A stretch of DNA of 53,134 nt from Isotricha intestinalis (taxonomy: Eukaryota > Ciliophora > Litostomatea > Vestibuliferida > Isotrichidae): NCBI GenBank assembly GCA_023807065.1, contig JAJJLU010000400.1, positions 1 through 53,134 of the forward strand, given 5' to 3'. The notes below the pieces were generated by a model that was given only the letters and a program-made list of their open reading frames with translations, was not told the origin of the DNA and did no database searches. The position numbers were made by a program, and so were the translations under genes. Below, piece by piece: positions 6,209 to 53,134 of the stretch (positions within the stretch are counted from its first letter, which is position 1; every line of letters begins with the position of its first letter).

Positions 6209-6448
6209 TCTCCTTACCCTAATAATTAAATTTAATAAATAATAAAATAAATATAAATATAATTTAAAAAATTTAAATATTAATTCTAATTTTTTTTTTT
6301 AATTATTTAATTAAAATAGATATGAGTTATTTATTTTTTAATAAAATTAATTGAACAAAATTCATTAATTAAATATTATATTCAGATTTTAATAATTAAA
6401 AAATCCTTAAAGGTGATATATAATGAATTAATTTTTAAAAAAAATAAT

Positions 6449-7800
6449 ATGACAAATGTTTTTAACATTCCTTATTCTTTAAACAATCAAAACAACAACA
6501 ATAACAACAATTATGAGAACAACAATTATAATAATAACAATAATATATTGATAAATAATTCATTATCAAATAATAAAAATATAATATCATTAATAAATTC
6601 ATCAATAATAATTAAATTACATGAACATCCATTAATATATTGTGTTACAAAAGATAGAAATCAAAAAGGATGGAGTTGTAATATTTGTAAAACTAATAAT
6701 AATTATAATACTCCTTCTTTTTATTGTGTTTTTTGTGATTTTGATTTATGTAAAAGTTGCTTTGGTAAAATGAAAATAGATGAAATATTTTTATATGATT
6801 ATAATTCAAATAAATTTAATAATCTTCAATCAAATAATAATTTGAATTGGCAAATAAAAATTCCTGTTCATAATCATTCATTATCATTAATTAAAAGAGA
6901 AAATAAAAGTAATAATTTAATATGTAATAATTGTTTAATTTTTTTGAATAATAATGATATTACTTATTATTGTTCTTTATGTAATTTTAATTTATGTGTT
7001 AATTGTGTTTCAAAAATGAATATATTAAAAAATAATATTGTTCCTAATCAAAATAAAATAAATGAATATTTTCAAATTAAATCTTTTAATATTTTAAATG
7101 AGGAATATTTAAAAAAAAATTTAATATATTCTCCTTTATCAATTTATTTTTTATTTTGTTTAATTGGAAATGGAGCAAGTGATATAACATTAAATAAAAT
7201 AAAAGAAGTTTTTTCAATTAATGATTTACAAATAGAAAATAATATAAATGTTGAATTTTTAAATTCAATTAATAATAATTCTTATTTTGATTTAACTAAT
7301 GCAATTTATTCTCCTTTTTCTTTTTTATTTCCATTTCCTTTATATATATCAAAATATAAATCAAAATATTCTCAAAATATTTTTGAAATTAATAATTATA
7401 TTCAAGAAAAAACAAAAAATCAAATTTTTAATTATTTAGATAATTCATTTAGAAAAAAAAATTTACTTTAACTAATCAATTAACAAATTTTACAAATTCA
7501 AATGGAATGACAAAATTAATTCAAATGATGAATTGTAAGATAAATTTAAATATTATAATGATATTTCTATTGAAATTATTCAAATTCCTTTTTTTAATAA
7601 TGATTTATCTGCTTTAATTTTACTTCCAAATAAAAATTATTCCATTGATATAATATTTGCAAAATTAAATTAAAATATTTTAAATAAATATAAACTATTA
7701 TTAAATAAAATAAATAATAAAAAATATCTTCAATTTTTTAAAAATTTATATAAGAATTTAATGCTCTATTTAAGTCTGAAACCACGAATAGGAATTAAAA
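6449..7800 (+). pseudogene. Zinc-finger/serpin fusion gene, interrupted by frameshifts
   Basis: The open part runs from ATG 6449 to TAA 7471 (340 codons). An Asn-rich lead is followed by two copies of a ZZ/C1-like zinc-binding module (H-x-H-P-L ... W-x-C-x2-C ... Y-C-x2-C-x-F-x-L-C-x2-C) at roughly residues 60-115 and 145-195. A serpin N-terminal half follows, with marks such as NLIYSPLSIYF, IGNGASDITLNKI and LTNAIYSPF. After the stop, serpin sequence resumes: a fragment with GMTKLIQMMN at about 7504-7533, then DKFKYYNDISIEIIQIPFF and DLSALILLPN (about 7539-7673) in a shifted frame, and EFNALFKSE near 7757-7785 in another. The strand normally between these parts is missing and no reactive-centre loop is recognisable. 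An intron explanation fails because the shifts fall inside conserved serpin segments. It could still make a truncated zinc-finger protein. Confidence 0.7.
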
Positions 7801-14017: not shown

Positions 14018-17000
14018 ATGAAAATTAAGAAGATCCTACAACTCATATTTCTTTTGAGTCTCTTCTCCTTAATTTTATCTCAAGAAGAAATTACAGTTAA
14101 TGATGAACTTGACAGAAAAACTAAGATAGAAAATAAAGAAAAAAGATCAAAAAAATTTGATTATAAAATTTTTGTTAAAGACACTTATCGTAAATTTATA
14201 ATTTTTAGAACATATGATAATAAACAAAATTATTATATGTCTCCAATGCATATTCTTTTTCATAATACTCAAATTCCAGATGAATCAAATTATGAAAGAG
14301 CAAGTGCAATTTATCATGAAAATATATTAGTTGTATATCAAGAAAGAACAAAAGAATTTTATATTTCTGTTGTTTGCCCTAGAGAATGTGATGGATATTT
14401 AACTTATTATGCAAGTGAGCATATTCATTTGAATATAAATGAACATTTTGAATTCTTTGGAGGAAATGATTATATCATTGCTTTTAAAAAAGAGAATATT
14501 TTAAGAGATGAAGGTATTCAACTTGTTTTACTTGGTCCTCAAGTTGATGTTGATCATAATTCAATGCAAATTTTTTATTATGATAAAAATACTCAAGAAA
14601 GAGTTAACACTGATGATTATCCTATGAAAGGTCTATTAATTAAAAATACTGAATTATCTTATGTTCTTCATGCTAATAGTACTAAATATGAAAATGCAGA
14701 TAAATATATTTTTGTGAGCGTTAATGGACCAAGTGGCCATTTCATGAGATTTCAAAGTAGACATATTGGCTTTGGTAAATATTATGTTGGAGAACCTGCA
14801 ATTTATTCTTTAAAATCAAAACCTTCAGATTATACAACTGAAGAATGTATTGAAATTATTGGAGCTAGACCTAGAATTGAATATCAATTTAGACTATTAA
14901 CTACAACTTCACTTAAGTTAAGATTTAAAAATTCAGAAGAGAATGACATTGTTGGTTATTTACAAGATTATTATAAAAAATATACTGTAAATTCTGAAGG
15001 TGAAGTTAAAACTTTTTGCTTTGTTTCAAATGAAACTACTACTAAATTTATAAGATCTGAGCCTACTGATAAACAAGCTTTCTATTTCCAAATTGTTACT
15101 GTTGAATCAAATACAATTGAATCTATGATAGAACCCTTATATGAAGGATTTAGATATTTTGATTTAATACCAACAGGACAATCTAGATTTTATAGACATG
15201 CAAGATGGACTAATTATAAAACTAACATTTATATTACTTCTAATGCAGGAACTTTAAATGCTTATCAAGTTGTATGTACTACTTTTCCTTATTGTTCCGA
15301 TTTTTCCAAATATAAAAATGTTAAAAAATTAATTTATGGTTTTAGTGCTTTTGTTGCTTCTATTGATCCTAATTTAGAACATGCTTATGGTTCTCCTAAA
15401 CAAGTTCTTCATGTTGTTACTTGTATGGAAGAGAATGGATGTTATGTTTCTGTTAGATTTATGGATCAAGAAGGATTGGTTTATTTAGGACAAAATCAAA
15501 ATCACGCTAAATTTATTGAGTATAATGTAAAAGAAGATTATTTAATTCATTATACATCTTTTGAACAAAATAAACTTGAAATTAATTTAGATGTTTTTGC
15601 AGGAGATGTTGTTTTAGAATTTAATAATGAAGTTTTAAATAATTATCCTCATAAATATCTTTTCTTTGGAACTTCACAAAAATATATTTTTGATGGAAAT
15701 AAACTTGTAGGAAAAAATATAACAGTGACTGTATCAGCAAGAAAAAATTCATTTTACGTTCTTTCACATAAAGCAGTAGCTCCAAATGAAGAAAGAAGTC
15801 GAATTGGTGAAAGTGGTTTACTTCTTCAAGCAATAAAAGGGGATAATACTGAATTTAGAAGATATTTCAATTTTTGGCATAATAGTCCTTCAAAAGATAA
15901 TGCATTTTATGTAGTAAATTTCCTTCCTATAAATTGTGAAATTGATGTTTTCCATGATAATGAAAATCCAGAAGAACCAGATCTTAGAAAATTAAGTCCA
16001 AATTTCTTAGGACATTATGAAGATATTTTAACTGAATCAAATCCTGATTTTTATGAATTATCTCCAGTATATTATGTTAGATTTAATAAATTTAAGCATT
16101 TTATCCCAAAAGATAATTATTGTTTATTTTATGTAGGAGCTTCAGAATCTTCTAAAGAACTTCCTACTTTATTACGAGAAAATGCACCTTATTTTAGAAC
16201 TTTATCAAATAAAGTTAGAAAAGCTTCTTTTGTTTGGCCTTATCCTTTCCCTTATAGAATAGGAGATGCAGATATCAAAATAAATTTAAGAAATGAAGTT
16301 AGAATAAAAATTAAAGTAACAATAAATAATGATACTGAAATTTCAACAAGAGTAATTTCAAGATCTTCTATATTTGAAATTCCTTCTTCTCAATTAGATC
16401 AATGTCAAGGAATTGTTGGATGCCCTATTTTAGTTGAATTAGAATTAGAAAATCCAGATACAAATGACAAAAAATATCCTATTGAAATTAGTATATCTAA
16501 TACTAGAAAAACACCTTTCTTCCTTCAAAAAGGAATTTTTAGAAGAGCTGGAGTAAATGATAATTCAACTGATTATTATTATATTGATGTTGAAGCAGGA
16601 GAATCAGGAGAAATTATTTTAGATTTAAAAAGAGGAAGTGGATTTATGTTTGCTAAATTAGTTAAAAAAAATGCTTATTTGGATCCTAATCAAAATCCTA
16701 ATGCATGGGCTCAAAAAGTCAATTTACCTACTGCAACTGATTATGATAAAAGAATTTCTTATGATCCATGTACTCAAAAAATAAAATATGATAGTAAATT
16801 AACTCTTGAATGTGAAAAAGGATGCTTTATTGTTTTTGGAGTTGCTACAAAAGATAATTTCACTGAATTCCAAAGTTTATTTAATTTTGAATATTCTATT
16901 ATTGCAAGATATATTGAAAAAGGAGTAAATAATTTAGATAAAATAGCAGTTAATGTTCCAATAAATGAATTTATAGTTGGTGCTTTAGAAGATACTTATG

Positions 17001-20000
17001 AAAATGAATATTTTGATACATTTAAATTTGATTCAAATGAAAATTATAAAGGACTTGAAATAGAATTTAAAGCAGCAAAAGTTAATTTATATATATCATG
17101 GGAAACAGATTATTTACAAAAAGGATGTTTAATAAGTCCAGATGAAAATGTTCAAATAATTCGATTAAATCCAGGACAAACTTGTGGATCAAATACATTA
17201 CCTCAATTATTTAATGGAGTTGAATTTAAATTATCAGCTTATACTTCAGAATTTGAAAAAGGAGTTTTTTCACCTTATTATTTCAGAATAAGACCAATTT
17301 ATGAAGATAGACCTCATATAATTGAATTAGATTCAGATAAAGAAACAACTTGTACTACAGGAGATGATAATAAATGTTATTTTATGATTCCATTATATTC
17401 TTATGATGATGTTAGTACTTTAGTTCTTTATGCTGATACTGAAGGAGTAAATGATGTTGTTTTTTATGGTAGAACTGTTAAATCTGAAGCTTATGATTCT
17501 TGTAAAATTAAAAGTTGTTTTGAAGATTTTCTTGCTAGAGAAACTGATAAATCATCTAGTAATCAAGAAAATACGAAACATATTGAATTTAAAGCAATGG
17601 AATTTAGTAAAGATGATTATATTCTTGTTACTGTTAAATCATTAAGTGGAATTAAAAAAATTCCTGTTGCTTCATCATTTAAAACTTATGCTGACGCTAC
17701 TTCTCCTACACATAATTATATTCAAGTATTATATATTCGTCCTGAGCATTCTCAATCTATTATATTAGATGAACATACTTTAAATATTACTGTTATTCAT
17801 CTCAATGGAAAAGGAGAAATTCAAATGGATTCTAAATCTCATCAAATTGTAGCTGGAAATTCTCTTGTTTTGGAAACTCAAGGAAAAAAAGGAGAATTAA
17901 AAATAATAAATAAAGAACAAAATGATTTTATTATTGCACTCAAGTATAAATATTCTAGAGGAGCAGCTTCTGGAATATATAATCTTGTTATTGATGATGA
18001 AATAGGAAAATATCAAGAATTTGAATCTATAAATCCAACAATATATCAATTTAATGTTACTGTTAATACAAATAATAAATATACAATACTTAGAACATAT
18101 GCAAATGAAGGTAATGAAGCAGGAATGCATATTTTATTTAGTTCTACAGAAATTCCAACAATTAAAAATTTTGAAAGAGCAAGCAATTTATATCTTGAAA
18201 ACATTATGGTAATTAAAACAGATTATACAAAAAAATTTTATATTACTGTTTCATGTCCTGGAAATTGTAATGGAAGATTAACATATTACACAAGTAATAA
18301 AATTCATATTGGTTTAAATGAACATTTTGAATTCATTGGAGGCGGAGAAGCATATAATTTAGTTCTTAAAAGAGATTCAATTCCAAGGAATGAATATATT
18401 CAAGTTGTATTACTTGGACCTCAACTTGAACTTAAAAATGAATATATGCAAATTGGTGTAATGAATGAAGATGAAACATATTCAATTACAGAAATTTCTG
18501 ATAAAGGAATTTTAATTAAAGATATGGAATTATCAAAAGTCATTAATCCTAATAAAGATGAATATTTAAAACATAAATATATTTATATTCGAGTATCTGG
18601 ACCTCCAGGTCATTATATGAGATTTATGAATAGAAGAATCGGTCATGGAATATATAAAGCTGGAGATCCTGCAATGTATATTCTTAAAAATGATAAAAAA
18701 AATATGTTTGAAGAAGAATGTGTAACAATTGTAGGTAGAAAAAATATAATATATCAATTTAGATTAACAACAACATATGCACTTTCTTTAAGAATTAATG
18801 GTAATATTACTAAAAATATAGAAAATTATATGCAAGATTATATTACATATTATGCTTTAACAGAAAATTCTCAATCAAATTTATGTTTCAAATCACTTGA
18901 AAAAACTAAAATAAGAGGAAATGAAATAGAAACAACAAAACAAGCTTTTTATTTCCAAGTTATAATTGGTTCTGGAACAACCCTTGATTCAGTCATAGAA
19001 CCTTTTTATGAAGGATGGACTTATTATGATCAATTATCACAACATGAAACCAGATTTTATAGACATGCAAAATGGACTAATCAAAAAACAAATACATATA
19101 TTACTTCCAAATCTGGAGCACTTGAAGTTTATCAAGTTACTTGTACTACTTTCCCTTATTGTTGGTTTCTGAGTGATATGAAAAATGTTACTAAATTAAT
19201 TTATGCTTTTAGTGCTTATGTTTCTTCTATTAATCCTAATGATGAAACTCATTATGGTGATGCTAATCAAGTTGTTCATCTTGTTTCTTGTTTAGATTCT
19301 TTGGGATGTGGTATTAATGTAAGATATTATTCACAAGTTGAATCTATTAAATTATTAGAATATGAAAATCATGCTAAATATATCATGAAAGGAGAAAAAG
19401 AAAATTATCAAATTGATACTGCTTCAATTGACTCTAAATATGAAAAAATTGAAATAAGTTTAGATATTTTCGCAGGAGATGTTACTATAGGTTTTCATGA
19501 TCCTATATTAGAATATATGGCTGTTGACCATATCTTTTATGGTACTTCTGAAAAATATATTTATGATATTAAAGATATTAGAGAATTACAAATGAAATTC
19601 TCAATAAATGCTAATAAAAATTCATATTATGTTATTTCATATAGAAATATTGATTTAGGGAATGAAATAATTAAAATTGGTGAAAGTGGTTTATTATTCC
19701 AAGCAATGAAAGGTGAATTTGCAACAGTAAGACAATATCAGTTTTTCCATAATTGTGTAGACAAAAAAAATACCTCTTATGTAGTAAATTTCATTCCAGT
19801 AAATTGTGAAATTGAAGTAATTAATATAGATGAACAAAAAAGAAGAAAAGTTCTAATTCCAAATTCTTTAGGAATTTATGAATATATAATGTCCTTTGAT
19901 TCAGATGAAGAATATAAAAATGTATTTCCATTATATGAATTAAGTTTCAAACAATTTAAAAGACAAAAACCAATTGATAATTATTGTTATTTCTATGTAG

Positions 20001-23000
20001 GAGCTTCTGAATCATCACAAGGAATTCCAACTTTATTAAGAGAAAATATTCCATATTCAAGAACATTATCTAAAAAAAATCCTTTAGCCTTCATGGTTTG
20101 GCCTTACCCATATATTGAAGGAGATGCGGAAATTAAAGTAAATATAGAAAGTGATTATAATATATCTTATGTTGTTCTAGTTAATAATGATATTCTTCCT
20201 GATAAAATTGGTTTCACTCGTTCTACTTTAATTGAACTTTCTGAAGGAACTTTAAAAGATTGTAAATATACTAATGGAGGTTGTCAAATATTATTTGGCT
20301 TATTATTAGAAACTGAATATATTAATACAGATGTTTCTGTTCCTGTTGAAGTTAGTTTAACAAATAAAAGAAAAACTCCTTCAATTCTTCAAAAAGGTGT
20401 TATGAGAAGAAGTGGTTCAAATGATAATTCTACTAATTATTATTATCTTGAAGTTCAAAGAGGTGAAGAAGGAGAAATTTTACTTGATTTTAAAAGAGGA
20501 AATGGTATTATGTTCGCTAAATTAGTTACTAAATCTAATGATTCCCCTGATTTTGATGCTTGGAGAGGTAAAGTTGTTTTACCTACTGAAAAAGATCATG
20601 ATCCTGATTTAGTTTATAATCCTATTACTCAAAAAATAAGATATAGTGTTACACAAACTAATAAATGTGAACATGCTTGTTTTATTGTTTTCGGTGTTAT
20701 ATCAAAAGATCATATTGGAGCATTCCAAAATATTTTCTCATCTGAATATAATATTATTGCAAGATATTCTGAATATGGAGCTGAAAATTTAGCTAAAGTT
20801 GCAGTTTATATTTCAATGAATGAATTTGTTCATGGAACTGTTAATGATTTATTAAGATTTGGTTATTATGATGTTTATAATTTAGTAATATATGATAATC
20901 TTTATGGAATTGAAATTGAATTTAAATCAAATAAAGCAACAATGTATATTTCATGGGAAAATGATTATCCATCAAATTCTCCTTGTTCAATTAATCCTGG
21001 AGAAAAAGTAACTTTACTTAGATTAACTAAAAATTCAATGTGTGGAAGAATTCTTCCTAATTTATTTAAAGATAAAATATTTAAATTTGTTGTTTCAACA
21101 AATGAATTTGAAACTGGACTTATTTCTCCTTATTACTTTAGAGTTAGACCAATATATTATGAACAAGAACCAAATGTTATTGAAGTATTATCTGATAAAG
21201 AAACAGTTTGTCAAACAGTAGATAATTATTGTTACTTTATGATACCATTAAATTCTCATGATGATATAAGTACTATTGTCCTTTATACAGTTAGTCAAGG
21301 AGAAAATGATATAACATATTATATAAAATCTGTCTATAGTCATGAATATGAAAAATGTAATCATCAATTTAGTTGTATTAATAATTTATTCCCAAGACAA
21401 GAAGGAGATGGAGTAATTACTTCCAGAAGTAAATTTATTACTGCTGATGGATTAAAATATGATAAAAATTATTATATATTAATTACAATTAGAGCAACTA
21501 GAAATCAATTATTAACTCTTGCTTCATCAATGAAAACTTATATTCATTCCACTGATCCTAAATCAAGTAATATTCAACTTGCTTTTATTACTCCAAGTAA
21601 TAAAAGAAGATATAATATAAAACCACATATTAAATATATTTATGTTACTCATCTTTTAGGTAAAGGAATCCTTAATTTCCAAGATAATAATTATACAATA
21701 AATCAAGGAATTAAAACTTTAGAAAATAGAGGAACTAATGCAACATTTACAATAATAAATAATGATCAAAATGATAATTTAATTTTAGCAATTCAATATC
21801 TTCAAGTAATACCTCCAATAACAAAAGAAATTGTTGTAAATAATGAAAGGGGCAGAAATGAATTAATTTATAGTGAAGTCCCAGGTATGTTCCAATATCA
21901 AATTAGTGTTCAAGCTTCTGGAAAATATGTTATTTTCAGGACTTATTTAAGAGAACCAAATTCAGGTCCTTTACATATATTTATGAGTCCTTCTGATTTT
22001 CCTACTCCAAATAATTTTGAATTAGGAAGTTATTCATATCATGAAAATATAATTGTTGTTAAAAAAGAAAATTGGGAAAAATTTTATATTACTGTTAATT
22101 GTCCTGAAAAATGTAATGGAAATTTAACTTATTATTCAAGTGATCATATTCATATTAATCCAAATGATCATTTCGAATTTTTGGGTTCAAGTGAAAGTTA
22201 TAATTTAGTTATTAAAAGAGAATCAATTCCAAGTAGTGATTCTTTACAATTAATTTTACTAGGTCCTCAATTTCCTCTTAGTGTAAATGATATGCAAATT
22301 GGTACTGTTAATAATTTAGATGAAAGTATTGAAAAAACTGATCAAGTAAGTCAAGGTGAATTAATTGCAAATAATGAATTATCAATCGTTATTCATCCTA
22401 ATAATCCAAAATATAATAATAGGAAATATATATATATTAGAGTAAGAGGACCATATGGACAATTTCTTAGATTCCAAAGTAGACATATCGGAGCGTCAAG
22501 ATATTATATTGGAGATCCTGCAGTTTATGTTATTAAAACAAATAGAGAAGATATGAATAAAGAAGATTGTATAGATATTTTAGGAGAAAAAGAAGGTGAA
22601 ATTTATTCATTTAGACTTGTTCCTACTTATTCAGTTTATATGACAATTAATGGTATACATAAAGCAACTTCTTCTTTTATGAAAAATTATGAAACTACAT
22701 ATACAGTCAGTAAAGAAAATCCAGTAACTCATATTTGTTTTAAAGCAAATGAAACAACTAATGTTGAAGGAACTGTCAGAAGAACTCCTAAATTAGCTTT
22801 TTATTTCCAAGTTGTCAATTCTGACACTAATTCAATTAATTCTCTTATAGAACCATTATATGAAGGTTGGGTTTATAATGATAATTTAAATTATCGTCAA
22901 AAAAGAATATATAGACATGCTAAATGGACAAGTGAAAAAACAAATTTGTATCTTATAAGTAATGTAGGAACAATAAATGCTTATCAAGTAAAATGTACAA

Positions 23001-26000
23001 CTTTCCCTTATTGTCTTGATTCAACAACTTATCAAAATGTTTCGAAATTAATTTATGCTTTTAGTGCCTTTGTCTCTTCTATTGATCCTAAAGAAGAAAC
23101 ATATTATGGTGGTTCTAAACAAATCATAAATATAGTTGAATGTATGACTGAAGGTGGATGCACATTTTCATTACATTATAAAGATCAAGAATCTAGAACT
23201 CAATTAAAGGAAAATGAAAATCATGGTAAATTTATTAGAGCAGGAGAAAGAGAAGGATATTATTTCTCAGCTTTAAATTTAGAATCAAATTATAAATTAG
23301 AAATTAATTTAGATGTGTTTGCTGGAGATGCAGTATTAAGTTTCTCATCCGAAATGGGCTATGTGAATTATAAACATATATTTGTTGGTTCTTCTGAAAA
23401 ATATATTTTAGAGCCTTCTGATGTTAAAGATAGAGAAGTTGTATATTCTATAATTGCAAAAAGTAATTCATATTATGCAACATCATTTAGAATATTAGAA
23501 CCAAAAGATGATAGTTCAAATATTGGAGAAGGAGGATTATTACTTCAATTTTTAAATGAAGAAAACTTGAAAAGTAGAGATTTCCAATTTTGGCATAATA
23601 TGCCTTATAAACAAAATGTTCCATATGTTGCAAATTTCATTCCAATAAATTGTATATTATCAGTTAAATTTAAATCAAGAGATGAATCCGAAGAAAGAGG
23701 AATTAAAAATAATAGTTTAGGAGTTTTTGAAGATGTAACAACTTCATCAACTGATCCTTCAACATTTGGTAGATTAGATCCTATTTATTCAGTTAAATTT
23801 AATGGTTGGAAAGGACAAGCTCCTTCAGATAAAAATTGTTATTTCTATGTTGGAGCTTCTGAATCATCAAATGAACATCCAACTTTATTAAGAGAAGATT
23901 TAGTTTATTCAAGAACTTTAACTCAATTTGCTAAAAGTGCTTCATTTATTTGGCCTTTCCCATTTACTCCTGGAAATGCATTAATTAAAATAAATTTAAG
24001 AAATGAATTTTCTATTAGAGCTAATGTTTCTGTTAATAATGGTACTTTTGTTTCATCATATATTTTCTCTAAATCTGCAATTTTTGAAATTTCTGAAAAA
24101 GACCTTGCACAATGTGCTGATGCTGAAAGTTGTTCAATTATGTTAACTTTAGAATTATTTAGTAATATGGATCTTGGTGGTTCTATTGTACCTGTTGAAG
24201 TTAGTTTAACTACTGGAAGAGGAACTCCTATTATGTTACCTAAAGGAGTTTTAATAAGAGGAGGTTTTAATGATAATACTACTACTTATTATTATCTTGA
24301 AATTGCTAAAGAAGAAGAAGGAGAAATTGTACTTGATTTTAAAAGAGGAAGTGGTATCATGTTCGCTAAAATGGTTAGTAAAGATGATGTTGTTGTTGGT
24401 CCTAAAGCATGGAGAGAAAAATTAATTTTACCTACTGAAAATGATCATGATAAAGAATTAGAATATAATTATGCTACTCAGAAAATTAAATATAAAAAAA
24501 GTTATACTGAAAAATGTGGAGGTATATGCTTTATTATTGTTGGAGTTACTAGTAAATTTAAATTCGAAGGTTATGAAGCTTATTTTGCTTCTGAATATAA
24601 TATAATGGTTAGAAATCCTAAAAAAGGAATTAAAGATGCTGAAAAAAATTCCATTAATATTCCTATAAATGAATTTATTTCAGGTTCAATTCAAGAAAAG
24701 AATGATTATTATGATACATATTCTTTAGAATTTATGAAAAATTACAGAGGATTTGAACTTGAATTTAAATCAGAAAAAGCTGAAATTATATTATCTTTCG
24801 GAAATGAATATTTAACAAAAGGTGATTGTGGATTACCTTCAGGGCGAGATATTCAAATAGTAAGATATAAATTAAATGATGATTGTGGTCAAACAAAAGT
24901 TCCATATTATTTAAAAGAAAAAAAATTAAGAATAACTGTTAAATCAACAACAAATAAAGATGATTATATACCATATTATTTCAGAATAAGACCAATTTTA
25001 GAAGGAGAAAGATCACATATAATAGAAATTAATTCTGATAAAGAAACTGCTTGTTTCGGTGAAGTAAATTCATTATGCTATTTCATGGTTCCATTATATT
25101 CATGGGATGGAGTTAGTAATATTGTTCTTTATGCTAATACACATAATGAAGATTCTAAAGATATTACTTTCTATTATAAAAAAGTTGCATCTGAAGAATA
25201 TGATCGATGTGATGATAGAGAATGTTGGAATAGATTTATTGCAGATGATAGAGCAAATTCATCTATTACTCAAGTTAATACTAAATATGTTATTATTAAA
25301 GGAATTGATTTATTAAAAACAGATTATATTATGGTTTCAATAAAAACAAAAAATAAACAAATAGTACCTATTGTTTCCTCAATTAAAAACTATTATAATT
25401 CAATGATCTCAAAACCAAATTATGCTCAATTAATATATATGTATGCCCAAGAAAAAAGATTAGTAGCAATAAATGAATATATTTCTCAAGTAAAAGTAAT
25501 ATATATAACAGGTCAGGGAGATGTTTCAATTAATTTATTCAAATATGAACTTCCTCCAATAACACCAATAAATGTATTAACTCACAGATTAAAATCACAT
25601 ATTGAAATAGAAAATAAAGAAGAAGGGCATTTCTTAATAGCATTAGAATATAATTATCAAGAAAAAGTTAATTTAACAAAAATAACAGTGACACCTCAAC
25701 GTTATCAAAATAAATTATTCTTTGCTGAAGGTCCTCAAATGTTTAATTATGAAGTAGAATTAGCTAAAGAAGTAAAAGATAACTATGTAATTTTCAGAAC
25801 TTATGCTAGTGAAAATGGATTAGGTGATATGCATCTTTTAATGCATGAATCTGAAGTTCCAAGTCCAGCAAAAAATAACTTTTCAAGTAGTTTATATCAT
25901 GAAAATATAATTGCAGTTAAAACAAGAGATGGTAAAAATCGTCATTTCTATATTACTGTAGTTTGCCCTGAAAAATGTAAAGGTAATTTAACTTATTATT

Positions 26001-29000
26001 CAACTAATTATATTCATATGGATGCTAATGATCATTTTGAATTTATTGGAGGTGATTCTTATACTTTGGCTTTCCTTAGAGAGAGAATTGACCAATCACA
26101 AGCTATTCAACTTGTTTTACTAGGTCCTCAACTTTCACTTGATAAAGAATATTTGAAAATCGGTTATGGACAAGATGATGGTCAAATTATTATCACTCAA
26201 GATATTCCTAAACAAGGTTTATTAATTAATGGAATGGAATTATCTTATATTCTTCATCCAAGTGATAATAAATATAAAGGTAAATATATTTTTGTTAGAG
26301 TTGGTGGATTAACAGGTCATTATATGAGATTTATGTCAAGACATATTGGAAATGGAAAATATCATATTGGAGACCCTGCAGTATATTCTCTTAAAGATAA
26401 TAAAACAGATTATTTAAATACTGAATGTGTTGAAATTTTAGGAGCAAAATTAGGTCAAATATATGAATTTAGATTAATAACAACTTATGGTCTTAATTTA
26501 TTAATAGATGGTAGAGTCCATCATACTACAAAATATATGGAAGATTATTTATCAGATTTTTCAATAACAAATACTAGTAAAGTTCATAACATTTGTTTCA
26601 ATTCCACTCAATTTACTGATAGAGGAGGAAGAACAGAAGAAACTTTAAAACAAGCATTTTATTTCCAAATAGTTAAAACTGATGTAGATTCAATTAAAGC
26701 TGTTATTGAACCATTATATGAAGGTTGGATTTATAAAGAAAAAATTTTTGCTGGTCAATCAAGATTTTATAGACATGCTAAATATACTCCTCAAAAAACT
26801 AATGTATATATCCAAGGTAATAATGGTGATATTAATGTATATCAAGTTAAATGTACTAGTTTCCCTTATTGTCATGACAGTGGATTATATCAAAATGTTA
26901 GTAAATTAATTTATGCTTTTAGTCATTTTGTCTCTTCAATTAATCCAGAAGAAGAAAAACATTATGGTGATTCTCAACAAGTTATTCATGTTGTTAAATG
27001 CTTATCTACAAGAGATTGTGATGTTACAATAGAATATTATGATACTTATTCTGAAATTAACTTTAAAGAAAATGAAAATCATGCTAAATTCCTTGAAAAA
27101 GGAGGAACTGAAACATATCAATTTAAACCTTTACCATTGAGTGATAGTAATGTAATTGAAGTTAATCTTGATGTTTTTTCAGGAGATTGTGTTATTCAAT
27201 TTGATACAGAAAAATTACAAAATACAAATTATAAATATATATTCTTTGGAAATTCTGAAAAATATATTTTCCCAGCTTCAAAGGTTAAAGGACAAACAAT
27301 TAAATTTTGGGTTAGAGCTAAAATAAATAGTTATTATGTTATATCTTATAGAGATGTAGAAATAAGTAATGAATATTCTAGAATAGGTGAAAGTGGTTTC
27401 CTTCTTCAATCAATTAAAAATGATAGAGCTAATGAAAGATTCTTTACATTTTGGCATAATAATCCATCAAAAAATGATGTCCCATATATATTTAATTTAA
27501 TTCCAATAAATTGTCATGTTGATGTATATTATAAAAATAAAACTAGTTTGAAACCAAATTCTTTAGGTCATTATGAAGATATTTACACTTCTGAAACTGA
27601 TTCGGAATTATTCTCATTACATCAATTAGATTATTCTGTTAAATTTAAAGAATTTAGTCAAAATGAACCAAATGATAAATATTGTCATTTCTATATTGGA
27701 GCCTCAGAATCATCAAAACAAGTTCCAACATTATTAAGAGAAAGTATGGTATATACAAGAACTTTAAGTGATAAAGTAAGAAGTGCTGTTTTTGTTTTAC
27801 CATATACATATGCTAGAGGTGATATTGATATTAAAATTAATATGAAAAATTCATATAAAATGAAAGCAAATATTACTTTAAATGATGAATTGATTTCTCA
27901 AACTACTTTCACAAGATCAGCCTTATTAGAAGTTTCAGAAGGTTATTTAATGAAATGTGAAACTGTTTATGGTTGTCCTATTACAATTTCATTAGAATTA
28001 GCTTATGTATTTGACCTTGGTGATACTGTTGTTCCAATTGAAATTGTTGTTTCAAGTCCAAGAAAAATGCCTTCTATTCTTCAAAAAGGAGTTTTTAGAA
28101 GAACTGGTATTAATGCTAATACTACTGATTATTATTATATTGAAGTTGAAAAAGATGAAGAAGGAGAAATTATATTAGATATTAAAAGAGGTACTGGTAT
28201 AATGTTTGCTAAATTAGTTAATAAAACAAGAGAAAGTGATCATGAAGATGCTTGGAGACGTAAAGTTATTTTACCTAATGAAACCCATAATGACGTTTAT
28301 TTACCTTATAATCCAATTACTCAAAAAATTAGATTTGAAAAGAAACATACTTTCAAATGTAATAATGGATGCTTCTTAGTTTTCGGAGTTAAAAGTAAAG
28401 AAGATCATTCTGGATATGAGAATATATTTACTCAAGATTATACTATATTTGCAAGATATATTAATTTAAAAGAATCTGATTTAAATAAAGTAGCAGTTAA
28501 TATTCCTGTTAATGAATATATTATTGGTTCTCTTGAAAATACTGAAAAACAAGGACAAAAAGATGCTTATATAATTGATTTATATGATAATTATGATGGT
28601 TTAGAAATAGAATTTAACTCAGATAATGGAATATTAAAATATGGGTTGTCAGATAATTTCAAAGAAGTAAATAAATTTTCAAATATAGTTGGAATTAGAG
28701 AACCTTTAATTAGAAAAGTAACATTTAATCAAAATGAAAAGACAAAAGGTAAGCAATTTAGAATGGTAGTATATACTGAAAATTTAGGAAATTATAAGAC
28801 AACACAATATACATTAAAAGTAAGACCAATTCTCAAAAATAGACCACATCTTCTTGAAATTAACTCAGATAAACCAGTTATTTGTAATGCAAAAAGTGAT
28901 GATATATGTAATTTCTATCTTCCTTTATCTACTTTTGATAGTGTTAGTGACTTAGTTGTTTATGCTGATGCTAAACATGAAATAGATTTATATTATTCTG

Positions 29001-29785
29001 TAACTTCCTCAGATTATTTCGGTAATTGTGATTATACAAGATGCTTTACTGATGTTCTTCCTTCTAAATATAGATATATTCAATCATCGGAATTGCAAAA
29101 AAATAAAAATTATTTATTTATTAATACTGCAAATTATCAAAAAGATGATATTCTCCTATTTTCCATAACAACAAGAGCTGAACAAAAAATTTCTTTATTC
29201 TCTTCACTTAAATCATTTGTTTTTTCAACTATTCCAACACCAAATACTCTTCAAATAATAGATGTTATTCCATTCTCAGATCAATCTATTATATTAAATG
29301 ATGCAATAAAAACAATAAATGTTACTTACATTCAGGGAATTGGAAAACTTAAATATGATAAAAATTATGATTTTAATGTAAATTCAAAAAATTTCATAAT
29401 AAATAAAGCAAATAACAATAATATTTTTAAAGTAGAAAATACTGATCCTTCACAACATTTAATTTTAACACTTAGTTATGTTATTGATAATAAAAAAATT
29501 AATCCAATTAGACCTGATTTAACTCCTGATATTCCTGATCCTGTTCCAGGTAAAAAAGATGATAAAAAATCTAATACTTCAGGAATTAGTCCTTTATTAA
29601 TATTTGCATTATTTTTAATTTTGGTTGCCGTTGGTCTTGCAGTTGCTTGGAAATTATTGAAAGTAAAACAAGAAAAAGACAAATTTAAACAAAATGTTGA
29701 TCAATTATCAATTACTTTAAGTGGAAAGGAAATTGAAAATCAAAAGCAACCTTTGTTGAATGAAAATAATGAATTAAATCCTTAA
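14018..29785 (+). CDS. Giant four-unit type I transmembrane surface protein
   Basis: A single intron-free frame of 5255 codons. Residues 1-22 are a signal peptide (MKIKKILQLIFLLSLFSLIL). Residues 47 to about 5150 consist of four tandem units starting near residues 47, 1345, 2625 and 3909. A short Pro-rich stalk (PDLTPDIPDPVPGKK), one transmembrane helix at about 5191-5212, and a 43-residue cytoplasmic tail follow. Each unit repeats the same marks: CP-x2-C-x-G-x-LTYY, IYRHA or FYRHA followed by a basic residue, CT-x-FPYC, GASESS-x3-PTLLRE, R-x-G-x-N-x-N-(S/T)-T-x-YYY, and GEI-x-LD-x-KRG-x-G-x-MFAKLV. Conserved Cys pairs suggest extracellular disulfides. I know no named domain for the unit. The 5' end and many codons are less AT-biased than neighbouring genes, which may reflect strong expression. 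Adhesion, coat or feeding-surface roles are guesses. Confidence 0.95.
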   Translation: MKIKKILQLIFLLSLFSLILSQEEITVNDELDRKTKIENKEKRSKKFDYKIFVKDTYRKFIIFRTYDNKQNYYMSPMHILFHNTQIPDESNYERASAIYHENILVVYQERTKEFYISVVCPRECDGYLTYYASEHIHLNINEHFEFFGGNDYIIAFKKENILRDEGIQLVLLGPQVDVDHNSMQIFYYDKNTQERVNTDDYPMKGLLIKNTELSYVLHANSTKYENADKYIFVSVNGPSGHFMRFQSRHIGFGKYYVGEPAIYSLKSKPSDYTTEECIEIIGARPRIEYQFRLLTTTSLKLRFKNSEENDIVGYLQDYYKKYTVNSEGEVKTFCFVSNETTTKFIRSEPTDKQAFYFQIVTVESNTIESMIEPLYEGFRYFDLIPTGQSRFYRHARWTNYKTNIYITSNAGTLNAYQVVCTTFPYCSDFSKYKNVKKLIYGFSAFVASIDPNLEHAYGSPKQVLHVVTCMEENGCYVSVRFMDQEGLVYLGQNQNHAKFIEYNVKEDYLIHYTSFEQNKLEINLDVFAGDVVLEFNNEVLNNYPHKYLFFGTSQKYIFDGNKLVGKNITVTVSARKNSFYVLSHKAVAPNEERSRIGESGLLLQAIKGDNTEFRRYFNFWHNSPSKDNAFYVVNFLPINCEIDVFHDNENPEEPDLRKLSPNFLGHYEDILTESNPDFYELSPVYYVRFNKFKHFIPKDNYCLFYVGASESSKELPTLLRENAPYFRTLSNKVRKASFVWPYPFPYRIGDADIKINLRNEVRIKIKVTINNDTEISTRVISRSSIFEIPSSQLDQCQGIVGCPILVELELENPDTNDKKYPIEISISNTRKTPFFLQKGIFRRAGVNDNSTDYYYIDVEAGESGEIILDLKRGSGFMFAKLVKKNAYLDPNQNPNAWAQKVNLPTATDYDKRISYDPCTQKIKYDSKLTLECEKGCFIVFGVATKDNFTEFQSLFNFEYSIIARYIEKGVNNLDKIAVNVPINEFIVGALEDTYENEYFDTFKFDSNENYKGLEIEFKAAKVNLYISWETDYLQKGCLISPDENVQIIRLNPGQTCGSNTLPQLFNGVEFKLSAYTSEFEKGVFSPYYFRIRPIYEDRPHIIELDSDKETTCTTGDDNKCYFMIPLYSYDDVSTLVLYADTEGVNDVVFYGRTVKSEAYDSCKIKSCFEDFLARETDKSSSNQENTKHIEFKAMEFSKDDYILVTVKSLSGIKKIPVASSFKTYADATSPTHNYIQVLYIRPEHSQSIILDEHTLNITVIHLNGKGEIQMDSKSHQIVAGNSLVLETQGKKGELKIINKEQNDFIIALKYKYSRGAASGIYNLVIDDEIGKYQEFESINPTIYQFNVTVNTNNKYTILRTYANEGNEAGMHILFSSTEIPTIKNFERASNLYLENIMVIKTDYTKKFYITVSCPGNCNGRLTYYTSNKIHIGLNEHFEFIGGGEAYNLVLKRDSIPRNEYIQVVLLGPQLELKNEYMQIGVMNEDETYSITEISDKGILIKDMELSKVINPNKDEYLKHKYIYIRVSGPPGHYMRFMNRRIGHGIYKAGDPAMYILKNDKKNMFEEECVTIVGRKNIIYQFRLTTTYALSLRINGNITKNIENYMQDYITYYALTENSQSNLCFKSLEKTKIRGNEIETTKQAFYFQVIIGSGTTLDSVIEPFYEGWTYYDQLSQHETRFYRHAKWTNQKTNTYITSKSGALEVYQVTCTTFPYCWFLSDMKNVTKLIYAFSAYVSSINPNDETHYGDANQVVHLVSCLDSLGCGINVRYYSQVESIKLLEYENHAKYIMKGEKENYQIDTASIDSKYEKIEISLDIFAGDVTIGFHDPILEYMAVDHIFYGTSEKYIYDIKDIRELQMKFSINANKNSYYVISYRNIDLGNEIIKIGESGLLFQAMKGEFATVRQYQFFHNCVDKKNTSYVVNFIPVNCEIEVINIDEQKRRKVLIPNSLGIYEYIMSFDSDEEYKNVFPLYELSFKQFKRQKPIDNYCYFYVGASESSQGIPTLLRENIPYSRTLSKKNPLAFMVWPYPYIEGDAEIKVNIESDYNISYVVLVNNDILPDKIGFTRSTLIELSEGTLKDCKYTNGGCQILFGLLLETEYINTDVSVPVEVSLTNKRKTPSILQKGVMRRSGSNDNSTNYYYLEVQRGEEGEILLDFKRGNGIMFAKLVTKSNDSPDFDAWRGKVVLPTEKDHDPDLVYNPITQKIRYSVTQTNKCEHACFIVFGVISKDHIGAFQNIFSSEYNIIARYSEYGAENLAKVAVYISMNEFVHGTVNDLLRFGYYDVYNLVIYDNLYGIEIEFKSNKATMYISWENDYPSNSPCSINPGEKVTLLRLTKNSMCGRILPNLFKDKIFKFVVSTNEFETGLISPYYFRVRPIYYEQEPNVIEVLSDKETVCQTVDNYCYFMIPLNSHDDISTIVLYTVSQGENDITYYIKSVYSHEYEKCNHQFSCINNLFPRQEGDGVITSRSKFITADGLKYDKNYYILITIRATRNQLLTLASSMKTYIHSTDPKSSNIQLAFITPSNKRRYNIKPHIKYIYVTHLLGKGILNFQDNNYTINQGIKTLENRGTNATFTIINNDQNDNLILAIQYLQVIPPITKEIVVNNERGRNELIYSEVPGMFQYQISVQASGKYVIFRTYLREPNSGPLHIFMSPSDFPTPNNFELGSYSYHENIIVVKKENWEKFYITVNCPEKCNGNLTYYSSDHIHINPNDHFEFLGSSESYNLVIKRESIPSSDSLQLILLGPQFPLSVNDMQIGTVNNLDESIEKTDQVSQGELIANNELSIVIHPNNPKYNNRKYIYIRVRGPYGQFLRFQSRHIGASRYYIGDPAVYVIKTNREDMNKEDCIDILGEKEGEIYSFRLVPTYSVYMTINGIHKATSSFMKNYETTYTVSKENPVTHICFKANETTNVEGTVRRTPKLAFYFQVVNSDTNSINSLIEPLYEGWVYNDNLNYRQKRIYRHAKWTSEKTNLYLISNVGTINAYQVKCTTFPYCLDSTTYQNVSKLIYAFSAFVSSIDPKEETYYGGSKQIINIVECMTEGGCTFSLHYKDQESRTQLKENENHGKFIRAGEREGYYFSALNLESNYKLEINLDVFAGDAVLSFSSEMGYVNYKHIFVGSSEKYILEPSDVKDREVVYSIIAKSNSYYATSFRILEPKDDSSNIGEGGLLLQFLNEENLKSRDFQFWHNMPYKQNVPYVANFIPINCILSVKFKSRDESEERGIKNNSLGVFEDVTTSSTDPSTFGRLDPIYSVKFNGWKGQAPSDKNCYFYVGASESSNEHPTLLREDLVYSRTLTQFAKSASFIWPFPFTPGNALIKINLRNEFSIRANVSVNNGTFVSSYIFSKSAIFEISEKDLAQCADAESCSIMLTLELFSNMDLGGSIVPVEVSLTTGRGTPIMLPKGVLIRGGFNDNTTTYYYLEIAKEEEGEIVLDFKRGSGIMFAKMVSKDDVVVGPKAWREKLILPTENDHDKELEYNYATQKIKYKKSYTEKCGGICFIIVGVTSKFKFEGYEAYFASEYNIMVRNPKKGIKDAEKNSINIPINEFISGSIQEKNDYYDTYSLEFMKNYRGFELEFKSEKAEIILSFGNEYLTKGDCGLPSGRDIQIVRYKLNDDCGQTKVPYYLKEKKLRITVKSTTNKDDYIPYYFRIRPILEGERSHIIEINSDKETACFGEVNSLCYFMVPLYSWDGVSNIVLYANTHNEDSKDITFYYKKVASEEYDRCDDRECWNRFIADDRANSSITQVNTKYVIIKGIDLLKTDYIMVSIKTKNKQIVPIVSSIKNYYNSMISKPNYAQLIYMYAQEKRLVAINEYISQVKVIYITGQGDVSINLFKYELPPITPINVLTHRLKSHIEIENKEEGHFLIALEYNYQEKVNLTKITVTPQRYQNKLFFAEGPQMFNYEVELAKEVKDNYVIFRTYASENGLGDMHLLMHESEVPSPAKNNFSSSLYHENIIAVKTRDGKNRHFYITVVCPEKCKGNLTYYSTNYIHMDANDHFEFIGGDSYTLAFLRERIDQSQAIQLVLLGPQLSLDKEYLKIGYGQDDGQIIITQDIPKQGLLINGMELSYILHPSDNKYKGKYIFVRVGGLTGHYMRFMSRHIGNGKYHIGDPAVYSLKDNKTDYLNTECVEILGAKLGQIYEFRLITTYGLNLLIDGRVHHTTKYMEDYLSDFSITNTSKVHNICFNSTQFTDRGGRTEETLKQAFYFQIVKTDVDSIKAVIEPLYEGWIYKEKIFAGQSRFYRHAKYTPQKTNVYIQGNNGDINVYQVKCTSFPYCHDSGLYQNVSKLIYAFSHFVSSINPEEEKHYGDSQQVIHVVKCLSTRDCDVTIEYYDTYSEINFKENENHAKFLEKGGTETYQFKPLPLSDSNVIEVNLDVFSGDCVIQFDTEKLQNTNYKYIFFGNSEKYIFPASKVKGQTIKFWVRAKINSYYVISYRDVEISNEYSRIGESGFLLQSIKNDRANERFFTFWHNNPSKNDVPYIFNLIPINCHVDVYYKNKTSLKPNSLGHYEDIYTSETDSELFSLHQLDYSVKFKEFSQNEPNDKYCHFYIGASESSKQVPTLLRESMVYTRTLSDKVRSAVFVLPYTYARGDIDIKINMKNSYKMKANITLNDELISQTTFTRSALLEVSEGYLMKCETVYGCPITISLELAYVFDLGDTVVPIEIVVSSPRKMPSILQKGVFRRTGINANTTDYYYIEVEKDEEGEIILDIKRGTGIMFAKLVNKTRESDHEDAWRRKVILPNETHNDVYLPYNPITQKIRFEKKHTFKCNNGCFLVFGVKSKEDHSGYENIFTQDYTIFARYINLKESDLNKVAVNIPVNEYIIGSLENTEKQGQKDAYIIDLYDNYDGLEIEFNSDNGILKYGLSDNFKEVNKFSNIVGIREPLIRKVTFNQNEKTKGKQFRMVVYTENLGNYKTTQYTLKVRPILKNRPHLLEINSDKPVICNAKSDDICNFYLPLSTFDSVSDLVVYADAKHEIDLYYSVTSSDYFGNCDYTRCFTDVLPSKYRYIQSSELQKNKNYLFINTANYQKDDILLFSITTRAEQKISLFSSLKSFVFSTIPTPNTLQIIDVIPFSDQSIILNDAIKTINVTYIQGIGKLKYDKNYDFNVNSKNFIINKANNNNIFKVENTDPSQHLILTLSYVIDNKKINPIRPDLTPDIPDPVPGKKDDKKSNTSGISPLLIFALFLILVAVGLAVAWKLLKVKQEKDKFKQNVDQLSITLSGKEIENQKQPLLNENNELNP
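14156..18049 (+). repeat. Giant-protein unit 1 (residues 47-1344)
   Basis: The unit begins at FDYKIFVKD, with FIIFRTYDN shortly after. Landmarks are CPRECDGYLTYY, RFYRHARWT, CTTFPYC, FYVGASESSKELPTLLRE (GASESS codons near 16137), RRAGVNDNSTDYYY, and KETTCTTGDDNKCYFMIPL. It is the longest unit at about 1298 codons. Confidence 0.9.
18050..21889 (+). repeat. Giant-protein unit 2 (residues 1345-2624)
   Basis: The unit begins at FNVTVNTNN, with ILRTYAN shortly after. Landmarks are CPGNCNGRLTYY, RFYRHAKWT, CTTFPYC, FYVGASESSQGIPTLLRE, RRSGSNDNSTNYYY and ETVCQTVDNYCYFMIPL. The GASESS landmark lies 3864 bp after its counterpart in unit 1. The length is about 1280 codons. Confidence 0.9.
21890..25741 (+). 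repeat. Giant-protein unit 3 (residues 2625-3908)
   Basis: The unit begins at FQYQISVQA, with VIFRTYLRE shortly after. Landmarks are CPEKCNGNLTYY, RIYRHAKWT, CTTFPYC, FYVGASESSNEHPTLLRE, IRGGFNDNTTTYYY and ETACFGEVNSLCYFMVPL. The GASESS landmark lies 3852 bp after unit 2. The length is about 1284 codons. Confidence 0.9.
25742..29530 (+). repeat. Giant-protein unit 4 (from residue 3909)
   Basis: The unit begins at FNYEVELAKE, with VIFRTYASE shortly after. Landmarks are CPEKCKGNLTYY, RFYRHAKYT, CTSFPYC, FYIGASESSKQVPTLLRE, RRTGINANTTDYYY and KPVICNAKSDDICNFYLPL. The GASESS landmark lies 3846 bp after unit 3. It is followed by the Pro-rich stalk and membrane helix. Confidence 0.9.
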
Positions 29786-36380: not shown

Positions 36381-36809
36381 TTAAATTAATTTAATGTTTA
36401 AACGTTTATTTATATTTTTTTTTTCTTGTTTATTTTTTTTTTTAAATTTTTATTAATTTAATTTATTTAAACTTTTAATATATAGATTCTTTTATTTTAT
36501 AATGGAATTTATATGTAAAAAGGATCTTCTTAATTTATCATGAGATGAAAAAAAATATTATTTATTAAAGATATTATATATAATTCTTTTCATTTCTTTA
36601 TTATTTCATAGAGAAAAGAATATTTTCAAAGATAAGATGATTTATTAAAAATAAAAATGATGTCATAGATTGATTAAGTCTAAATAATTAAATATTATAA
36701 TTTTTAATTTAATTAAAATTTACACATATTAAAAAAATACATATATCTCTTATTTCATCTCTTTATAAAAAATAAAAAAATAAAAAAAACATTTCAACCA
36801 TAAAAAGAT
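36381..36809. other. Spacer upstream of Aha1-like and downstream of the kinase gene
   Basis: This 429-bp stretch lies between the Aha1-like start and the 3' end of the kinase gene. It is AT-rich, with T-runs near the Aha1-like start and no open frame, repeat or RNA gene recognised. Confidence 0.6.
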
Positions 36810-39800
36810 TTATTTCTTCTTATTATAACTTCTATTATTATTCATTTGACTTTGACTATGAATTTGATATTGACTTTGATTATTATTTTCCAATTTTTGA
36901 TTATTTCCTTGAACAAAAGACCATCCTTCAAATTTAGTATTATCTTCATTTCCATTTTCATCACCAACATCATCTTCTTCATCATCCGCAAATAATTTAG
37001 GTTCTTTAAACATTTTTATTTGTCTTCCATCTTGAATATTTTTAGGAGGTTTTAATTCTCTATTATATACTTTATTCCAATCAACATCTTTAAAATATTC
37101 ATAATTCATTATTTCCTCGACGTCACCTTTACTTCCTAATCTTAAATTAGGTTCTTTTTTTAAAAGAGCTTTGATTAATTTTTGAGCTTTATTAGAAATA
37201 AAATTTGGTATTTTTAAATCAGCTCTTTCGATATTTCTAAATATTTGTTCTTTACTATTAGTAAAATAAGGAGGAATTCCAACTAACATTTCATAAAATA
37301 AAACTCCTAATAAATACCAATCAACTGCTTTTCCATGGCCAGTTCTACTTAACATTTCAGGAGCTAAATAAGCAATTGAACCACAGAAACTTTTTGCTAT
37401 TTTTGTATCATAAACTCCTTCTCTAGATAAACCAAAATCAGTTAACATTGCATGACCTTCTTTATCAATTACTACATTATCTGGTTTTAAATCTCTAAAT
37501 ATTATATCTTTTTTATGTAATTCTCCTAAAGCTAATATAACTTCACATAAATAAAATTTAGCTTTTTCCTCTGAAAAACGTGTTTGTAATTGTAATTGTT
37601 CTGCTAAGTCCCCTCCTGGACAATAATCTAATAAAAGGAATAATTTTTCATTTGTTTGAAAAGCATAATTTAATTTAACTATAAAAGGATTATGAACAAT
37701 ACTTAAAACATTTCTTTCTGTCATAGCATATTTAAATATATTTTGTTCAGCTATTCTATTTTTATCAAGAACTTTCATTGCATATTTTTCATTTGTTTTC
37801 TTATGTTCTACCAAATAAACTTCACCAAATGATCCTCTTCCTAATAATGCTATACAAATAAAAGAAGAAGGTCCTATTTTTTCTTCTGTTGATTCTGAAG
37901 ATAAAGAATTATTTGATGAAGTATTATTATCTTCTTCTTCTGATTCATTTTGAGAATCATTTAAATTTGATTGATCTTTTATTTCTGTTTTTGATGTATT
38001 TAATAATATTTGATTTGAATTTTGCTCTGAATTATATTCTGGATTATTTACTTCTGTGTTATTATTTATTGATAATATATCTTCTTCATTTGATGAATTT
38101 GAATTTTGATTTGGAGAAGGAGTTTTTGGTTCTGATAAATTTATAATTGATGATATTGTTGGTTTTTGATTTTTTTGATTTTTGTTATTATTATTATTTA
38201 ATACATTTATATTATTTTGATTTTTATTATTTTCTATGTTTATATTATTGTTTGTTTCATTTTTTGAAGGAGGGTTGTTTGCATTTGTATTATTGTTTGT
38301 ATTATCATTTGAATTTATATTTGGTGTTTGAGTTGTTGTTTGCTCAGAAAAATTATTTATTATTTTTAAATTATTATTTGAACTTACTTTTTTTAATGAA
38401 TTTAATTTTTCATTTCCATCAAATTCTAATGATATTTCTATATTTTCAATTAAATTGATATTATTTAATTTTTGATTGTTATTCTTTTTTACTATTTTAT
38501 TTTTTCTTGAATCAGAAAGACTTTTTCGTCTTTTTTCTTGTCTTTCAAATTTATTGACACATGAATTTTCATTTCCATTCACATTATTACTATTATTATA
38601 ATTAGCATTATTATTATTTGATATATTTAAATGGTAATTTGAAAAACGTGGAACTGAAATAGTTCTATGTTTTCCTAATTCTTTATTTTTATTATTTAAA
38701 TTAATATTTAGATTATTTGGATTATAAGAAATTAAATTTGGATGAATATTATTATTATTTGAATTATTAACTGACATTATTTTATCAGGATAAGCACTTG
38801 CTGTTTTTCTTGAAGTTGCAGAAATTTTTGATGAAAAAATAGAAATAGTTTTTTTAGTATTAGTAGAATTATAATTAGATAAATTATTAACATTATTGTT
38901 ATTTACATTATTATTTTTTTTATTTTTTCCTAAATTTAAATTATCTTTATGAAGATTTTTATTATTAGATTTATTAGTATGTGCATTATTTGAATTACTA
39001 TTATTAACATTATTATTATTAGTATATCTACTTTTAGTTCTAGTTTTATTTAATTGATTTTGAGGTTGCATTGCACTAGAAATTTTTTTAGGAGATTCTA
39101 AAACAACTTTAACTCTTTCAGGTTGTTTTTTAACTTTAGAATTATTATTTGAATTATAATTAAAATTTCCTTGAGTTGTATTATAATGAGTAGAATTTGT
39201 ATTAGAATTTCCTCCTGTAAAATTAGATGAAGTAGAAACTATAATTACATTTCCATTAATTTTTTTATTATATTTATTTGTATTAATATTATTATTATTT
39301 TGATTACTTGATTTTTCTGCAGTTTTTGGTTTCACATTTTTTGTAGTTATAGGACCTTTTTTAGGAATTGATTTTCTTCCATTTTGATTTATTGTCTTCA
39401 TTAAAGAGTTTATTTGTTTTGGATTTGTATTATGAATTTTTATTCTTCTACATTGTTCTTTCATAAAATTATTTGCAGGATTATTTGAATGTTTTTTCAA
39501 AAAATTGTTGTTTTTCCCTTCATTAACTTTTGTGTTCTTTGAATTATTAGGAAGAAATTTTTGTATAATTTCCTTATTTTCTTCATTTATTGCTAAATCA
39601 AAAGGAGTTTTACCATATAAATTTTTAACTAAAGCAGTTGATGGATTTTGTTCTAATAAATAATTTAATAATTCATTATGTTGAGTCATAGCACATAAAT
39701 GAACAGGAAGATTTTTTTCATTATCACATAAATTTAAATTGGCTTTTTTTTCAATTAATAATTTAGATATATCAAAATAACCTCTTGAAGCAGCAAAATG

Positions 39801-40664: not shown

Positions 40665-40931
40665 CTTTTTATAATCGGTTTAATTAATTTTTAATATTAA
40701 TCATTTAAATAAATTATATGATAATAAAATAATGAAGGAGTTTTTATTTATTTTATATATTTTATTTAGTTTCTTTACTGGATTTTTTTATTTTATATTT
40801 CAAAATATTGTTTGAAAGATTTTATTTGAGAAATTTTTTTTTTAATTTTTTTAAGAAAAATTGATTTAAATATGATTTACTATATCACAATAAATATGAA
40901 AATGATTTTTGATATTAAATTAATAATTATC

Positions 40932-41819: not shown

Positions 41820-42180
41820 TTTTTTATTTTTGAATGATTTTAATTTAATTTAAATTCAAATTTTAGATTTTCATATTAATAAATTATTTTAGATGATTTA
41901 TTATACAAAGGAAAATTTATAAATAATATTATTTTCTTCTATTATAGAAAAAATATTTTATAAAAATAAAAATGTTTAAATTCTTTTATTTTTATTACTT
42001 TTTTTTTTTAAATTTCTATGTCTCAAATGATAGATCCATTTTTAAATTTTTATTCTTTTATTCAATAAGTTATTTAAAAAAGATATTTGATTAACAACAA
42101 AATAAATTAATTATTATTCATAATCCAAAAAATGAATTTTAAAATTATAACTCCTAAATAAAAAAATAAATAAAAAAAAA
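41820..42180. other. Divergent spacer between the CXC gene and the CFAP144-like gene
   Basis: These 361 bp lie between two divergent start codons (41819 minus, 42181 plus) and must hold both promoters. The sequence is AT-rich with long T and A runs. No motif, RNA gene or repeat stands out. Confidence 0.6.
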
Positions 42181-53100: not shown

Positions 53101-53134
53101 TTGGGGATTGGGGATTGGGGATTGGGGATTGGGG
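53101..53134 (+). repeat. Telomere array, unit GGGGATT
   Basis: Five GGGG blocks at 53103, 53110, 53117, 53124 and 53131 are separated by ATT, a perfect 7-base period to the end of the window. The G-rich strand points toward the end, the orientation required for the right-hand telomere of a chromosome. No matching CCCCAAT array occurs at the left edge, so only one end is represented. Confidence 0.9.

Follow-up and report, generated by a model that had tools for sequence, protein, structure and literature searches.

Gene layout

The window analyzed here, i.e. the whole stretch of 53,134 nucleotides from the litostome ciliate Isotricha intestinalis, corresponds to contig C200 of a 57.3-Mb assembly in 2153 contigs. 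It carries a gene for a predicted membrane protein of 5255 residues containing four long tandem units, which is the subject of this work (Table 1). As a sequence-only reading of this DNA had proposed, the frame is open for 5255 codons with the standard code and ends on TAA; it is called intron-free on the basis of the open frame and of the unit-to-unit alignment, not of transcripts. The short landmark GASES occurs at residues 707, 1995, 3279 and 4561, i.e. at spacings of 1288, 1284 and 1282 codons (3864, 3852 and 3846 bp), exactly as claimed. Identity between units ranges from 40.8 to 45.2% (six pairs, 1225-1276 columns). Hydropathy rises above 1.6 at just two places, namely the signal at the N-terminus and a helix around residue 5200, in agreement with the signal peptide, single membrane helix and short tail predicted earlier. 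The G+C content of the gene (25.4%) is higher than that of several neighbours, and its third-position G+C is ordinary at 7%.

Units 1 to 4 contain 21, 21, 20 and 19 cysteines respectively, and cysteine amounts to 1.5% of the protein. The regular Cys pairs announced by the sequence-only reading are borne out as far as conservation is concerned: among the 20 cysteines of unit 3, 16 occur without exception in the four-unit rows that cover the column (9-13 rows out of 13). In single-unit rows, 19-20 of which cover a given column, 14 of the 20 are found in 17 or more, while those at positions 80, 84, 989, 1008, 1116 and 1121 are frequently absent. The pairing itself is suggested by the spacing, with up to ten likely pairs per unit. 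The tail carries a motif, Q-L-S-x-T-x-S, found in 8 of 9 four-unit-type tails (two of which, C550 and P0006, are near-identical) and in all four of the closest single-unit tails; distant single-unit tails have less in common with the four-unit type.

Table 1. Coordinates of the gene and of its predicted parts in the window
Feature	Coordinates	Strand	Remark
Whole open frame, 5255 residues then TAA stop	14018..29785	+	Standard code
Predicted signal peptide, about residues 1-21	14018..14080	+	Hydropathy and like N-termini among relatives; putative cleavage site placed by eye
Unit 1, about residues 38-1332	14129..18013	+	
Unit 2, about residues 1333-2615	18014..21862	+	
Unit 3, residues 2616-3902	21863..25723	+	Unit used for modelling
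Sub-feature within unit 3	22817..23188	+	
Sub-feature within unit 3	23846..24214	+	
Sub-feature within unit 3	24215..24619	+	
Unit 3 predicted domain D9 (920-1050)	24620..25012	+	Aligned with the P0026 stretch matching PF17065 and PF04151 (PPC) below cut-offs
Unit 4, about residues 3903-5158	25724..29491	+	
Short Pro/Lys/Asp-rich linker ("stalk"), about residues 5159-5189	29492..29584	+	
Predicted membrane helix, about residues 5190-5211	29585..29650	+	Hydropathy
Predicted cytoplasmic tail, 44 residues	29651..29782	+	

Four-unit homologs and age of the array

A protein of the same length from another source (P0002, whose cluster represents 43 sequences and three contigs) differs from the window protein at 6 of 5255 positions. 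Six further homologs (P0003-P0008) share 42-54% identity with it. The four units and both ends are present in P0003, P0005, P0006 and P0007; P0004 spans the four units and is cut within the signal peptide and within the fourth unit, and P0008 misses its N-terminal part. The Isotricha genome itself contains a second four-unit gene (contig C550, frame of 5199 residues), which P0006 reproduces almost exactly, a third one split across contigs C1320 and C1178, which share an exact 141-bp end, and the last unit of a fourth gene of this type at the end of contig C1788. In the split gene the frame changes around position 4530 of C1320 (locus L038), near the start of unit 3, which is about 64 residues longer there; an assembly error, an intron or decay could account for this. 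None of these homologs has two, three or five units, the genes that are cut not being judgeable in this respect.

A tree of 38 rows was built from 33 units of four-unit genes, a 705-residue fragment (P0019) and four single-unit proteins; P0002, a near-copy of the window gene, and the incomplete P0008 were left out. Units 1, 2, 3 and 4 form four clades, each of which contains the unit of that position from every sampled gene (support 96/90 for unit 1 and 100/100 for units 2, 3 and 4), and P0019 groups in the unit 1 clade. The rows of P0007 are long, two of them have an unusual composition, and the forks joining them to the clades of units 1, 3 and 4 are open, which makes the position of these rows within their clades unsure. 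Since units cluster by position across genes, the tree indicates that the fourfold array arose before the sampled paralogs and sources separated, and the units are old as the sequence-only reading held.

From unit 4 to the tail, the window gene and the gene of C1788 are 81% identical, with nonsynonymous (dN) and synonymous (dS) divergences of 0.104 and 0.29; C550 and C1178 are 71.5% identical (dN 0.182, dS 0.349). These values come from simple counting, and dS is perhaps underestimated at such composition. The four-unit genes are thus maintained under moderate constraint.

Predicted fold of the unit

The absence of a nameable domain, claimed by the sequence-only reading, holds for profiles. 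All Pfam and NCBIfam matches to the window units fall below curated cut-offs (best E-value 0.028), and the same is true of the other family members, except for a vWA domain in one paralog described below. With HMMER filters on and E-values as high as 10 allowed, the pre-peptidase C-terminal (PPC) profile PF04151 matches nowhere in the four units; nor does it match in a genome search at 0.001, in which controls matched in just 3 of 14 genomes. Neither is there a match to the CUB profile (PF00431) in the four units, to a protease profile in the window protein or, at gathering score, to Rfam in the window. A sequence search of the PDB with unit 3 and three alignments (A1-A3) gave nothing below 0.17. 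Profile-profile comparison within the unit gives as best internal pair residues 737-826 against 872-969, with a probability of 30%, too weak by itself.

The predicted structure leads to a different picture. It was obtained for unit 3 only, as two overlapping pieces, and its model looks like a series of about 11 domains, each a jelly-roll beta-sandwich resembling PPC domains, the collagen-binding domains (CBD) of collagenases and CUB-like domains; domain matches are firm for three of the 11 and weak for six, the other two having no row of their own. Entries of the collagenases ColG and ColH superpose on single domains at 2.1-2.4 Å over 95-106 residues, and the PPC structure 5sv5 at 3.1-3.9 Å over 99-102 residues. 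The jelly-roll beta-sandwich fold of the PPC family is seen in the prediction. For the second model, Foldseek ranks cubilin first (3kq4_B, E-value 2e-9, probability 1.0); its superposition is poor (rmsd 25.8 Å, TM 0.13 and 0.20), therefore at most the kind of domain would be in common. Two-domain superpositions on SID-1/SIDT are mostly poor as well (12-15 Å); SIDT proteins are multi-pass, in contrast to the window protein, which has one predicted membrane helix besides the signal peptide.

A remote member of the family, P0026, was found at an E-value of 5e-37 in a protein search with the single-unit alignment. It aligns to the unit profile over positions 10-1270 with 49.5 bits; the bias term, however, amounts to 228.6 bits, which makes the local alignment uncertain. 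Its residues 998-1064, which align to domain D9, match PF17065 (7e-5) and PF04151 (0.0021; 19.3 bits for a cut-off of 25.9), both under curated cut-offs; none of the other family proteins searched, four in the same set and five in another, gives a PPC match. Altogether, the model suggests that the unit is a chain of about 11 small domains of known fold, rather than one new extracellular module of 1285 residues as first proposed. Resolution into well-known domains, named at the outset as an outcome that would speak against a new module, is thus partly observed, at the level of predicted structure.

Wider family and a vWA paralog

Same-genome searches gave at least 34 matches with unit 3 and at least 28 with a single-unit member, the window included in both cases. 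Eight loci (C1112, C1329, C17, C1067, C1468, C1347, C175 and C1389) hold one long single-unit frame of 1729-1873 residues. The layout of long single-unit members is a signal, one unit, about 400 more residues, a membrane helix and a tail. Shorter, split or contig-end loci were found on C86, C997, C1989 and C2074, and family pieces interrupted by stops on C1662 and C1939. The pieces of C1662 (L044) contain TAA, TAG and TGA, and are probably a decayed copy, or else exons. Protein searches with single-unit alignments gave 11 proteins (among the 7986 best-sharing candidates, which were scored) and 8 proteins, including near-copies of the genome's own loci (P0009, P0020) and fragments (P0019, P0024, P0025).

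One paralog, on contig C174 (L045 and L046, about 36600-44450), is a single frame of 2607 residues with, in order, a signal peptide, a vWA domain, an extension module, a full unit (E-value 7e-120), another extension and then a membrane helix. The vWA domain is above cut-off (PF13519, 1.2e-12; PF00092, 1.5e-12) and shows D-x-S-G-S followed by a T and a D, taken by eye as a putative metal site. Membrane-anchored vWA domains are adhesion modules of animals and apicomplexans, the surface adhesins integrin alpha and TRAP/MIC2 being examples, and the C174 protein resembles these in its signal peptide, vWA, putative metal site and membrane-anchored chain; the window protein differs from them by giving no match to the vWA profile. 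By analogy, this one paralog supports an adhesion role for the family, without proving it.

Chromosomal setting and neighbouring genes

The window is very AT-rich, and its long genes are readable under the standard code. Its right edge is a (GGGGATT)n repeat (53103-53130 plus the last bases to 53134); no repeat of this type was found at the left end. CCCCAAT telomeres are reported in Entodinium (PMC6211341), in Balantidium ctenopharyngodoni (PMC10978948) and in Muniziella, in the last together with the standard code (PMC11316547). On its right side the contig therefore most likely reaches the end of a macronuclear chromosome, that of a litostome gut ciliate.

Four neighbouring frames, all on the + strand, deserve mention. 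An alpha/beta hydrolase gene (51169-52194) has a G+C content of 36%, and of 28% at third positions against 3-12% in 17 other frames; it could have been recently acquired from bacteria. An ADP-ribosylglycohydrolase family protein (47927-49135) matches PF03747 at 5e-64 and stays under the cut-offs of similar NCBIfam equivalogs. Frame 6413-7471 combines C1-like zinc domains with a partial serpin match; it is possibly mis-joined or interrupted by introns. Frame 1745-6208, of 1487 residues, has no Pfam match at an E-value of 0.01.

Interpretation

We favour, with modest confidence, a giant type I surface membrane protein whose four units of about 11 predicted domains would bind multivalently, as part of the cell coat and where the cell meets particles or prey. 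Once the signal peptide is removed, the units, each composed of about 11 disulphide-stapled jelly-roll domains of PPC, collagen-binding or CUB-like kind (about 44 in total), would reach outwards like a long rod or a chain of beads, anchored in the membrane by the single helix, and the conserved 44-residue tail would probably provide a link to the cortex, or sorting. Because many similar domains are present, multivalent binding of a polymer is the most likely activity, the ligand possibly being a polysaccharide from plants or bacteria, mucin, or coat proteins that act as partners; hence the role proposed. The function in coat, adhesion or contact put forward by the sequence-only reading is consistent with these findings and gains from the vWA paralog, location and role being still what we infer.

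With the PPC domains and CBD of bacterial secreted proteases (ColG/ColH, and the Bacillus anthracis collagenase PPC) the window protein shares the predicted jelly-roll fold of single domains, besides the weak PPC match of its remote relative; it differs from them in joining about 44 predicted domains in one membrane protein, in its likely Cys pairs and in the lack of a protease match or of a PPC profile match. Cubilin and other CUB receptors, like the window protein as predicted, string jelly-roll-like domains into a long chain at the surface of a eukaryotic cell, whereas the window protein has its own membrane helix, a period of 11 domains instead of a single-domain repeat, and no CUB match. 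The GPI-anchored surface antigens of Paramecium and Tetrahymena are Cys-rich, large and repetitive, with regular cysteines; in contrast, the window protein is predicted to be transmembrane and beta-sandwich, and is low in cysteine.

The resemblance to cubilin, with its many CUB domains, raises the possibility, which we consider rather unlikely, of an endocytic or scavenger receptor. The chain would then capture numerous ligands, at coated pits or at the cell mouth, and their uptake would be driven by the tail. The rank of cubilin in the Foldseek results and the conserved tail, with Q-x-L-[LI] shared by 7 of the 9 tails of four-unit type, agree with it. Against this stand the poor superposition, the lack of this motif in the four single-unit tails checked, and the fact that Q-x-L-[LI] is not the same as the canonical acidic dileucine motif. 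A passive structural spacer or glycocalyx filament, keeping the membrane at a distance from its surroundings without a specific ligand, appears improbable. Its length is indeed fixed at four units in the genes having both ends, which suggests that reach matters; however, units have kept separate position-specific identities beyond what a pure spacer needs, and the vWA-bearing paralog hints at binding. Still less credible is a protein for self/non-self or mating contact in this conjugating ciliate: one genome does carry several large, diverging members of this family of type I membrane proteins, but mating proteins tend towards faster divergence, and here the four-unit architecture and unit positions are conserved between sources. 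Finally, a false tandem created by assembly, conceivable in a multicopy family with one sister gene split between overlapping contigs, has a negligible probability and is excluded in practice, because the units are 41-45% identical, so that over half of their residues differ, and are positional orthologs, and because four units recur in the P0002 protein and in further proteins from other sources.

In principle the protein is ordinary, a known fold being strung into a long chain, probably on a cell surface; its scale and its regularity are what set it apart. The new elements are the composite, the array of four and the family as such, the predicted fold of the single domain being already known. 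No paper on the family appeared, by title or start of abstract, among the literature matches listed, from which subscription journals are mostly absent, and none was found combining ciliates with the pre-peptidase C-terminal domain. A more ambitious proposal, which we put forward tentatively as the less probable extension, is that of an undescribed litostome family of cell-surface proteins in which a fixed 11-domain jelly-roll composite, single at first, was quadrupled once and has stayed fourfold since. Its tandem beta-sandwich chain would perhaps rank among the longest on a protist, and with its vWA sister it would form a particle and prey adhesion system analogous to, and independent of, integrins and apicomplexan TRAP.

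These results suggest that folds of the PPC/collagen-binding kind can form very long surface arrays in eukaryotes that sequence profiles miss. To our knowledge, food contact and choice by litostome gut ciliates are barely known at the molecular level. With its giant chain, its single-unit relatives and its vWA sister, this family offers testable candidates for the molecular basis of touching, holding and selecting food in these organisms.
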